Assembly (NCBI GenBank): GCA_018267365.1
Contig: JAFDYQ010000024.1
Coordinates: 1 to 64,000 of the forward strand
Direction: 5' to 3'
From: Bacteroidota bacterium
GTDB lineage: Bacteria; Bacteroidota; Bacteroidia; Chitinophagales; LD1
DNA length: 64,000 nucleotides
Shown: positions 12,881 through 15,202 of the stretch, piece by piece
Position numbering within the stretch: position 1 is the stretch's first letter
Layout of the letters: each line of letters begins with the position of its first letter
Program-made: the position numbers and the translations under genes
Notes under the pieces: model-generated
What the model saw: the letters and a program-made list of their open reading frames with translations, nothing else
Database searches by the model: none
Told to the model about the DNA's origin: nothing

Positions 12881-13159
12881 TTATCGCTTATTTTCTATCA
12901 CCACGACATTATTCTGATAGCGGGAGATCATTTTGCGGAGGGCCTTTTGTATGTCGGCGGGTGTGTGGTCAGGATAGCGGCGGTAGAGTTTGTGCAGGGC
13001 GGCATTGAGATCCAGTACAAAGGCGGCTGTAGCGCTCTCTGCCTTGGTGCTGATATCCTTGTCACTGAAAAGGCTATCGTACGATACGAAGATCTGGTGC
13101 GCTCGCAGGATGGTGTCTAAGATGGGTTCAAACGCTTTCTCTATCTCCTCCAAAGTCAT
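12881..13159 (-). CDS. Hypothetical protein, 92 aa
   Basis: I do not recognise the family. The 92 residues are soluble, with no signal peptide or membrane segment, and look mostly helical (EEIEKAFEPILDTILRAHQ, then AAFVLDLNAALHKLYRRY and IQKALRKMISRY). Codon use resembles the neighbours and the frame has a normal acidic-basic balance, so it is probably a real gene. It lies just outside the REP patch and is convergent with the porin gene. Confidence 0.55.
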   Translation of the reverse strand: MTLEEIEKAFEPILDTILRAHQIFVSYDSLFSDKDISTKAESATAAFVLDLNAALHKLYRRYPDHTPADIQKALRKMISRYQNNVVVIENKR

Positions 13160-13360
13160 GTCCGGGTTTATTTGCCGGCATAATTAAAAACATCATTTAC
13201 AATTATTGGAGGTGCAAAGAACAACAAGCTGCAAACTTTGGTAAAAACAACAATTTTATATGTGTTTATTTCAATAAATGTATGCTATGTGAGGGTGAAT
13301 TTTGTTCGTTTGTCTGCTGCGCTTGGAGGGTAGCGAACGGACAATCCTGCCTTCTCGTGC

Positions 13361-13464
13361 TGTCGCAGGGCGATGCCCTGCTCTGGGATATGTCGCCCCT
13401 TCGGGGCTGGACGTATAGCGGTGTAAGATCGCCAACCGCAGGTCGATGCGCTGCTCTGGCATAT
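13361..13464. repeat. REP unit and a degenerate second unit beside the transposase
   Basis: One full unit (13361-13410) has a palindrome CAGGGC-GAT-GCCCTG (13366-13380), then CTCTGGGATATGTC and a second palindrome GCCCC-TTC-GGGGC (13395-13407). A degraded relative, GCAGGTCGATGCGCTGCTCTGGCATAT, follows at 13437-13464. The same unit recurs beyond the transposase gene at 13982 and 14123. The 331-bp gap 13160-13490 holds only these repeats. Confidence 0.9.
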
Positions 13465-13490
13465 ATCGTCTTTGGCGCCGGAGCGTGAAA

Positions 13491-13943
13491 CTAATCCCAG
13501 AAGTACCTTTCGTCGTAATCCAGGTCATATCTCTTCAAAAGCTTACGGCACTCATCCTGGTAGGTAAAGAGGTCATGATGCTCCTTTTGATGGCGGATGT
13601 AATCTGCTACGCGGTCCAGCTCACTACTACCTACTGAGAAGGCGGCATAGCCATCCTGCCAATAGAAATGAGCCAACTGCTCGCTCTTTGTTTTCATCCA
13701 CTTGCTGGAGCTTTTCTTCGCTTCTTCCAGTAGTTTCATCACAGTGATCTTGCGCGATAGGAGACAGAGGATATGGACGTGGTCATAATAGCCACCGATC
13801 TGGATAGGTGTACACTCCAGTGCAGCGCAGACGCCTCCCAGATAGGTGTATAGCTCCGCGGCTATATTGTCGTCTATTAGAGCTTCTCTATTTTTTGTGC
13901 TGAAGACGATATGCAGGTATATTTTCGCCAGGGACTGTGACAT
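13491..13943 (-). CDS. IS200-like Y1 transposase, REP-associated (RAYT) candidate
   Basis: A 150-residue single-strand DNA endonuclease/transposase of the Y1 HUH class (Transposase IS200-like domain). The HUH metal-binding pair is H55-V-H57 in GGYYDHVHILC, and the likely nucleophilic tyrosine is Y115 in RVADYIRHQKEHH. Family features include YLHIVFSTKNRE at the N-terminus and FYWQDGYAAFSV. Length is that of a complete member. There is no accompanying TnpB and no IS200/IS605 hairpin ends; instead the gene is flanked on both sides by REP palindromes, which is the arrangement of REP-associated tyrosine transposases. These proteins are usually domesticated and move REP sequences rather than themselves. 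Confidence 0.9.
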   Translation of the reverse strand: MSQSLAKIYLHIVFSTKNREALIDDNIAAELYTYLGGVCAALECTPIQIGGYYDHVHILCLLSRKITVMKLLEEAKKSSSKWMKTKSEQLAHFYWQDGYAAFSVGSSELDRVADYIRHQKEHHDLFTYQDECRKLLKRYDLDYDERYFWD

Positions 13944-13981
13944 GATCCAAAGCTAAAAATGGATTTTTAATTTTTGAGATC

Positions 13982-14081
13982 CGCAGGGCGATGCCCTGCT
14001 CTGGGGTATGTCGCCCCTTCGGGGCTGGATCGTGAGACAGCCCTGAAGGGGCGTGATATGGGAGCGTGCGGAATCGCCGTG
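13982..14081. repeat. REPIN-like inverted pair 1
   Basis: The forward half (13982-14027) is the REP unit CGCAGGGCGATGCCCTG...GCCCCTTCGGGGCTGG. After a linker of about 11 bp the reverse half (14039-14081) carries the same unit inverted: AGCCCTGAAGGGGC, GATATGGGAGC and GGAATCGCCG. The two halves can fold into a long imperfect cruciform or hairpin, as in a REPIN/BIME. Confidence 0.9.
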
Positions 14082-14122
14082 GGCAGATTGAGGTATGCGC
14101 CGTTTGTTCATTGGTCTGTGCG

Positions 14123-14238
14123 TGTCGCAGGGCGATGCCCTGCTCTGGGATATGTCGCCCCTTCGGGGCTGGGTGCAGTATCGGTCAATAGGGCAGCCCT
14201 GAAGGGGCGTGATATGGGAGCGTACGGCATCGCCGTGC
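14123..14238. repeat. REPIN-like inverted pair 2
   Basis: The forward half (14123-14172) repeats the unit of pair 1 almost exactly; the reverse half (14194-14238) contains CAGCCCTGAAGGGGCG, GATATGGGAGC and CGGCATCGCCG. The linker differs from that of pair 1 while the halves are conserved. The gap 13944-14389 holds these two pairs, then a separate C-rich hairpin (TCCCTCTCCCGGGCGGAGAAGGGA, near 14307-14330), and no gene. Confidence 0.9.
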
Positions 14239-14389
14239 GTAGACTATTTGGGGTGCTATGGCACCCTGCGTGTGTCCTCATCCCTCTGCCCGCCGCGGCG
14301 GACATCTCCCTCTCCCGGGCGGAGAAGGGAGAACCTTGTGAGCGCGTTGGCGTTGGTTGCTGGTCAGGTGAGCGGCAACCGAAGACATC

Positions 14390-15202
14390 TCAGATTGTTT
14401 CAGACCTTTTGTTTAATAGATCGTTCGAAAACATTCTAATCAGTGCGGCTTCCAGTTTATCGATGAAATCATATTCAACGGAATAAGCTGTGAAGTACGA
14501 TGCTATATCATGTAACTTTACCTCTTGATTTGTTATCTTACTATTTTTTGAAGGCTTACCATTCTTTAGATAAGAAACTCTTTTGATTTCTTGGTATTTT
14601 CTTGGCCTATTGTATGCATTATTCATTTCAGCCCATAGACTTTGATCTTTGGCTTTGCCAGAATAGATGGCTTTACCCATGGAGTCATAAAATATATAAA
14701 TGCCTTTTAAAGAAATTAATTCTTCTCTTATTGGCTTCCCCTTACCCTTTTGATCAACTATTTCAAATTTAGTTTTTTGTAGAGATTGGGTTTTGCATAA
14801 AGGATAAAACTCTACAATAGGAACTAATAAATTGTCTGCATGCGATTTTTTTGCCTTTTCTATTATATCCACTACCATTCTAATGGTAATATCTTTCTTT
14901 TTCCACCCCGGAAGGGCAGCAGGAGTAACACCTAATAATGCAGCAACTTCGATGTCTGTAGTAGTGCCGTGTTTAGCTTTTAATTTTTGAATAAAATCTT
15001 TACCCTTAAATGTATTTTGTTCTTTCTCGAGAATTTTTTTTAAAACGCTTTGAAAAGTCTTTTTTGTGACTGTTTTCTTCGCCCAATTTCCGATCGTAGG
15101 CGAATTGCTATTGCCAATCAGTATCTTAGCTAGGTGGGCATTGTTGTTAGCTCCGTAAGCTTTCTTTAGTACTTGAACAAGTTCTTCTCCTGTAATCTCC
15201 AT
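14390..15202 (-). CDS. Double CI-like HTH protein fused to a GIY-YIG nuclease-like domain
   Basis: A 270-residue protein with an unusual layout. Residues about 5-60 and 68-118 are two related helix-turn-helix modules of the phage CI-repressor type (AHLAKILIGNSNSPTIGNWAKK; then VAALLGVTPAALPGWKKK). Residues about 165-265 resemble a GIY-YIG endonuclease: GIYIFYDSMGKAIYSGKAK supplies GIY (167-169) and a Y-S-G variant of YIG (180-182), E251 in DKLEAALIRMF fits the metal-binding glutamate, and N264 the late asparagine. The arginine usually found a few residues after YIG is not evident, so activity is uncertain. The gene is strikingly AT-rich and sits between the REP patch and nrdJ, suggesting horizontal acquisition. 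Confidence 0.7.
   Translation of the reverse strand: MEITGEELVQVLKKAYGANNNAHLAKILIGNSNSPTIGNWAKKTVTKKTFQSVLKKILEKEQNTFKGKDFIQKLKAKHGTTTDIEVAALLGVTPAALPGWKKKDITIRMVVDIIEKAKKSHADNLLVPIVEFYPLCKTQSLQKTKFEIVDQKGKGKPIREELISLKGIYIFYDSMGKAIYSGKAKDQSLWAEMNNAYNRPRKYQEIKRVSYLKNGKPSKNSKITNQEVKLHDIASYFTAYSVEYDFIDKLEAALIRMFSNDLLNKRSETI

Follow-up and report, generated by a model that had tools for sequence, protein, structure and literature searches.

The Y1 transposase gene tnpA of the window (the whole stretch of DNA analysed, 64,000 nt) and the two-hairpin repeats that bracket it appear to form a REPtron with a class-1, IS200-like enzyme. Acido-Lenti-1 (RF01687) would then be the REP of the group to which this enzyme belongs, TnpAY1 subclass 1.2, with TnpA presumably acting on the units. 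We put the probability of this reading at roughly 0.8. It draws on direct observations: the anatomy and dispersal of the units, their linkage to and orientation around tnpA, their co-occurrence with the gene across genomes, the subclass of the enzyme and the RF01687 match. That subclass 1.2 has REPs, Acido-Lenti-1 among them, is supported by independent tests across several phyla. A broader interpretation, which we hold probable with slightly less confidence, is that RF01687 is the single-stranded DNA (ssDNA) on which a widespread class-1 Y1 transposase acts and that subclass 1.2 represents an independent origin of REPtrons in several phyla, with an AG-tagged two-hairpin unit and with tnpA inside an inverted unit pair (Bacteroidota, Planctomycetota, Verrucomicrobiota, Acidobacteriota and others).

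The transposase gene and its flanking units

The tnpA gene (13491..13943, minus strand) is an open reading frame for a Y1 HUH transposase of 150 aa (Pfam PF01797, Y1_Tnp, 86 bits; NF033573, 70.7 bits). Six unit copies, each 45-50 nt long, surround it, in keeping with the initial annotation, which described a two-palindrome repeat of about 48 bp on both sides of the gene. A unit consists of hairpin P1 (8-bp stem, GAT loop), CT and a linker, and hairpin P2 (5-bp stem, TTC loop). Units were sought with two models. R1 was trained on copies from the window's own genome, the degraded one included, and matches those by construction, while R2 was built from units of the window's genus alone, taken from four genomes.

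REP unit 1 (13364..13408, plus strand) matches RF01687 over the full model length (30.4 bits, E=1.4e-4); its P1 hairpin reads CGCAGGGC-GAT-GCCCTGC and is followed by the CT tag, the linker and the P2 hairpin GCCCC-TTC-GGGGC. A degraded unit with 64% identity to unit 1 adjoins the 3' end of tnpA (13437..13482, plus strand) and scores 46.6 bits with R1, in whose training set it was itself included. On the other side, unit 2 (13982..14026, plus strand) lies 39 bp upstream of the tnpA start with P1 toward the gene and forms the left half of an inverted pair with unit 2' (14039..14083, minus strand), a weak RF01687 match of 17.8 bits. The second inverted pair joins unit 3 on the left (14126..14170, plus strand; RF01687 30.4 bits) to unit 3' on the right (14195..14239, minus strand; RF01687 27.4 bits, E=9e-4; R2 57.6 bits). 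This is the arrangement first described, with one unit and a degraded one on one side and two inverted pairs on the other. In the window, the side upstream of tnpA fits the anatomy usual elsewhere (see below), whereas the downstream units are direct rather than inverted and one of them is degraded.

The 50-nt stretches 13361-13410 and 14123-14172 have the same sequence, which excludes chance. The halves of a pair had been said to match in reverse complement; they are indeed inverted, but their complementarity is just 70-78%. The linkers differ between halves, as claimed, in that the 3' halves have a linker of their own, together with a different upper P1 stem (ACGGC...GCCGT). Variation among units, which had been placed nearly wholly in the linkers, is concentrated there but also occurs elsewhere, and P1 stem pairs co-vary.

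A class-1 enzyme

The survey of Quentin et al. (2018; PMC6006769), the only one found that gives the REP status of subclass 1.2, defines this subclass by Y---Q--HH, DH[VI]H, WQ and a length of about 150 aa with a conserved C-terminal tail. It reports few and dissimilar copies per genome (36% identity), lists REP as 'no' and notes that the subclass was not described by Bertels; RAYTs proper are class 2, with a Y---NP motif (PMC6006769). The window enzyme carries DHVH at 54-57, WQ at 95-96 and Y115-IRH-Q119-KE-H122-H123, that is, Y---Q--HH. The HVH metal pair and Tyr115 of the initial annotation are thus in place (D54-H55-V56-H57, W95-Q96, Y115). Twenty aligned relatives (29-69% identity) all keep the Y---Q--HH positions, and of 80 homologous loci taken from named genomes 75 have the full motif. 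Four residues of the C-terminal tail (D144, E145, Y147 and W149) are nearly invariant, and the length of 150 aa is that of subclass 1.2. The window gene also agrees with the published subclass in its few, dissimilar copies and in its origin from Bacteroidota, one of the groups listed for the subclass. An AlphaFold model of the protein (pLDDT 90.9) has its best fold matches in the TnpA of IS608 and ISDra2, and the RAYT structure 4er8 ranks 30th. Because the motif is Y---Q--HH rather than Y---NP and the nearest folds are those of IS608 and ISDra2, the enzyme is, as judged from its sequence, a TnpAY1 of subclass 1.2 and no RAYT of the known groups, contrary to its first designation as a RAYT.

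The window's genome (G000) contains two subclass-1.2 tnpA genes, 29% identical, within the range of 1-10 per genome seen in Bacteroidota, and nine class-2 Y1 genes, eight with Y---NP and one truncated. The window-type tnpA is single copy and the other Y1 genes are divergent; an IS200-type multicopy, near-identical element was not found in G000. On this point the expectation of the initial annotation, a single-copy transposase without such an element, holds.

The second subclass-1.2 gene of the genome (C33:207562-207987, L012) has CCGGACTTTAGTCCGG hairpins just outside both ends (207509 and 208168). Apart from two chance-like sites, these hairpins were not found elsewhere in G000 at up to one mismatch, and the gene looks like a solo IS-like copy with private ends.

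Units across the genome and the genus

The genome comprises 4.6 Mb in 76 contigs and holds about 20 units: 22 matches with R1 at E<=0.1 and 20 with R2 at E<=0.001. The exact pattern GCCCCTTCGGGGC has only 6 sites and is too strict for counting. Six units lie within 300 bp of the window tnpA, and the rest are found singly or in pairs on other contigs. At all 13 dispersed loci that were inspected the unit is intergenic, in several within 25 bp of the 3' end of a gene; the open reading frames that overlie units at L005 and L045 are probably spurious and overlap larger ones on the other strand. REPIN-type pairs occur with P1 outward (13982-14083, 14126-14239 and C33:241131-241251) and with P1 inward (on C23 and C15). 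The repeat is dispersed, extragenic, partly paired and clustered at a single-copy tnpA, which upholds the initial view of a REPtron-like locus. The expected tens to hundreds of dispersed REPINs are borne out as to dispersal and partial inverted pairing, but about 20 units is the low end of that range.

The window tnpA is syntenic between G000 and its congener G004. A conserved 92-aa neighbour (12881..13159, minus strand), a synteny marker outside the tnpA/repeat system, has counterparts of 84-85% identity next to the G004 tnpA and, in a second congener, G005, at the site that lacks tnpA. The latter genome, 95% complete, holds 24 units, and a subclass-1.2 tnpA was not found in it; its syntenic site has the same neighbours and a lone unit, with tnpA absent. 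A third congener, G002, has tnpA, and its units are only the two beside the gene. Within the genus, the presence of tnpA and the number of units do not correlate. About 40% of the unit sites of G000 are common to G004 and a partly different 40% or so to G005, which implies slow turnover, and no recent movement is claimed for the window's lineage. Unit similarity is 0.766 within genomes against 0.732 between them (permutation p<0.001), and this likeness is clearest in the linker, with GATATG in G000 and GAGGCG in both G004 and G005. The repeats outlast the gene and turn over slowly, as has been described for REPs.

Two function-unassigned genes, 12881-13159 and 14390-15202, are conserved around the tnpA site in congeners; their G005 counterparts are 85% and only 47% identical, respectively. 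The genus has another palindrome family, TTTGTTCGTTCGTTCGC...GCGAACGAACGAACAAA, seen at L051 and L256 and in degenerate form at 13300-13345 of the window, with several copies near the tnpA locus.

The best-surviving rival, which we regard as unlikely, takes the locus for an ordinary insertion sequence of the IS200/IS605 type, its terminal hairpins surviving as solo ends. It differs from the REPtron reading in degree, an IS-like origin against a maintained REPtron. Elements such as IS608 and ISDra2 share with the window locus the fold, the HUH-Y1 chemistry (predicted for the window tnpA) and hairpins near both tnpA ends, and the rival is favoured by the class-1 enzyme with these nearest folds, by the inverted hairpin units that bracket the gene and by the resemblance of the second subclass-1.2 gene to a solo element. 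Unlike IS200/IS605, however, the window system is no multicopy identical element: its tnpA is single copy and syntenic between species, non-autonomous units outnumber it by about 20 to 1, and inverted pairs also occur without tnpA. Units that vary in concert within a genome, and the few, dissimilar subclass-1.2 copies of the published survey, likewise argue against this rival.

Linkage to subclass-1.2 genes in other genomes

For linkage beyond the genus, 80 loci from named genomes were chosen by protein alone and the two 700-bp flanks of each were compared. The flanks share at least 20 nt at 54 of 73 testable subclass-1.2 loci, against 29 of 1588 control windows (1.8%) from the same contigs (p=1.5e-63). 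Distant relatives within the subclass (29-39% identity) show such sharing in 12 of 20 cases. The generic two-hairpin anatomy is present in 84% of subclass-1.2 flanks and in 13.5% of controls. With R2, in a test that left out the locus L079 (= G004, one of the four training genomes), 102 of 110 matches (E<=0.001) fall within 1 kb of tnpA, at 46 of 79 loci, a 92-fold density. A bias toward intergenic DNA, estimated at about 8-fold or less, cannot account for this enrichment.

Upstream of tnpA, 31 of 37 loci have their nearest unit on the minus strand; downstream, 27 of 33 have it on the plus strand (p=2e-8). The usual anatomy is thus P2-P1-[tnpA]-P1-P2, with a median distance of 62-69 bp between these units and the ends of tnpA. 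These loci extend the known range of subclass 1.2 to Planctomycetota, Verrucomicrobiota, Acidobacteriota and others. In G334, the genome of L145, dispersal can be seen: unrelated sites (L169-L182) carry 14 near-identical composites, each about 300 bp long and with inverted units.

These composites are non-coding and contain several hairpins, and their imperfect inverted ends read TAGAGCA...TGCTCTA.

The Acido-Lenti-1 match

In cmscan, units of the window match RF01687, an Rfam family of type sRNA, over positions 1-46 of 46 with 27-30 bits, below the gathering threshold of 37; a copy elsewhere in the genome (C6:32678-32722) reaches 41.2 bits, above it. The RF01687 consensus, an 8-bp hairpin, CUA, a linker and a 5-bp hairpin with a UUC loop, is the anatomy of the unit. 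The family was described from Acidobacteria and Lentisphaerae in a discovery paper that called it 'probably' RNA.

RF01687 was then scanned for in 39 genomes chosen only for subclass-1.2 tnpA and in 14 controls. At E<=0.001 it occurs in 34 of the 39, above gathering in 25, with up to 116 copies per genome, and in 0 of the 14 controls. Among 146 Planctomycetota genomes, with the query omitted, the family is found in 31 of 34 with tnpA and in 6 of 112 without (odds ratio 183, p=2e-22, kinship ignored). The corresponding figures for 246 Bacteroidota genomes are 35 of 110 and 13 of 136 (p=1e-5, kinship ignored); in the 75 tnpA-bearing Bacteroidota genomes where RF01687 went undetected, the units have perhaps diverged. 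Matches within 1 kb of a subclass-1.2 tnpA number 15 in Bacteroidota and 16 in Planctomycetota, against 0.26 expected in each. We propose that Acido-Lenti-1 is the REP of subclass-1.2 TnpA rather than an RNA gene. A link between RF01687 and a transposase was not met in the literature searched, whose scope left out most subscription journals, and an earlier statement elsewhere is possible.

Three Planctomycetota genomes (G351, G396 and G435) contain RF01687 copies (16 in G351, many of these paired), and no subclass-1.2 tnpA was detected in them. Gene loss, an assembly gap or another enzyme are candidate explanations.

The catalogued identity of RF01687 suggests a second rival, that the units really are a structured small RNA, the Acido-Lenti-1 sRNA, and that tnpA is found nearby since mobile genes insert beside such RNAs. 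We consider this a little less likely again than the insertion-sequence rival. Its classification in Rfam and the wording of the discovery paper favour it, as do two conserved hairpins and their covariation: 139 distinct aligned units show 292 two-sided (compensatory) changes. Yet G-U pairs are nearly absent, at about 0.7% of standard pairs in the units against 7.0% in eight tRNAs from the same loci (p=8e-8); the 139-unit alignment was fitted to the structure and the tRNA comparison is small. The structure-free R2 training alignment (MAFFT) agrees, with 18 two-sided changes and zero G-U. Covariation with scarce G-U is what DNA hairpins under selection should show. An RNA also sits poorly with an inverted unit pair about 65 bp from both tnpA ends in unrelated phyla, with inverted pairs on both strands at tens of copies per genome, and with unit presence that follows tnpA.

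Other candidate owners of the units

The nine class-2 Y1 genes of the genome, and the fact that known REPs belong to class 2, raise the thought that the units are those of a class-2 RAYT of G000 and lie beside the window tnpA by coincidence. This is very improbable: units within 1 kb of the nine genes number 0, against 6 at the window tnpA, and the association recurs at subclass-1.2 genes across phyla, at the 46 of 79 loci given above. With none of the nine having nearby units, a class-2 RAYT was rejected as their owner.

Chance likeness among bidirectional transcription terminators is as improbable, for although several dispersed units lie a few bases 3' of genes (L040, L043, L045), no T run follows the stems, the identity between upstream and downstream flanks and with distant sites exceeds terminator likeness, and terminators would not follow tnpA across genomes.

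Proposed mechanism and relation to known systems

Read on one strand, the 8-bp P1 of a unit is followed by the CT(A/G) tag, about 12 nt of linker and the 5-bp P2; the opposite strand reads P2, linker, (T/C)AG and P1. The tag 5' of P1 on this complementary strand has frequencies of 0.84 for T/C, 0.96 for A and 0.79 for G, and a leading G is unconserved; the CT directly 3' of P1 correspondingly has C at 0.79 and T at 0.96. Class-2 REPs carry a GTAG tag 5' of the hairpin, the AG of which is thought to choose the CT cleavage site (PMC8266576).

On the REPtron reading, subclass-1.2 tnpA would be kept vertically at low copy and would act on the two-hairpin ssDNA repeat that brackets it. Where the lagging-strand template or other DNA is single-stranded, a TnpA dimer would bind the P1 hairpin and perhaps P2 as well. 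Y115 would cleave at the CT beside P1, guided by AG, and whatever lies between two inverted units would be excised or copied. The full-length form would then be the tnpA copy with inverted units on both sides; REPINs and single units would derive from it and lack tnpA. Binding, cleavage site, strand choice, the guide role of AG and the mobilisation of ssDNA by TnpA are steps that we infer. Several findings weigh against the REPtron reading: the pattern within the genus (24 units in G005 despite the missing gene, two in G002 despite its presence), the slow turnover of sites, the direct orientation of the window's downstream units, the private hairpins of the second subclass-1.2 gene and the absence of an RF01687 match from 75 of 110 tnpA-bearing Bacteroidota genomes.

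Among the closest known systems is the REPtron of class-2 TnpAREP-RAYT enzymes with REPINs (E. coli TnpAREP, Pseudomonas RAYTs). Like the window locus, it has a Y1 HUH gene in low copy number with palindromic repeats on its flanks. In both, the repeats are extragenic and scattered, some of them as inverted pairs, and an AG stands at the hairpin's 5' base, in class 2 as part of GTAG. The systems differ in the motif of the enzyme (Y---NP against Y---Q--HH) and in the tag (GT[AG]G against (T/C)AG); the window unit has two hairpins, and, unlike the class-2 REPtron, window-type tnpA lies inside an inverted unit pair. Subclass 1.2 itself was published without REPs, whereas repeats flank most of its loci in the present analysis. 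RF01687 shares the 46-nt two-hairpin anatomy and is catalogued as an sRNA, against a DNA repeat tied to tnpA here.

If the reading is correct, a transposase subclass reported to lack any REP gains a cognate repeat, and REPtrons extend from class-2 to class-1 enzymes, which bears on the domestication of IS200-type transposases. RF01687, of unknown function since 2010, would be reclassified. Acido-Lenti-1 matches have been taken as regulatory RNAs in genome papers, for example near the KLIKK proteases of Tannerella (PMC13298647), and such calls would need to be read again as mobile DNA repeats.

Other hairpin repeats at distant subclass-1.2 genes

Other hairpin repeats border distant subclass-1.2 genes (L057, L061, L063, L065 and L071; L059 and L073). 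One type is tagged CTATAAAC/TTTATAG and another GCCCACGGTTTAAACCGTGGGC, and they look like separate REP types of the subclass. At L060, a long array of CTACCAAGGTTTTGCTCCGATGGAGCAAGGTT... hairpin units flanks a subclass-1.2 tnpA on both sides.
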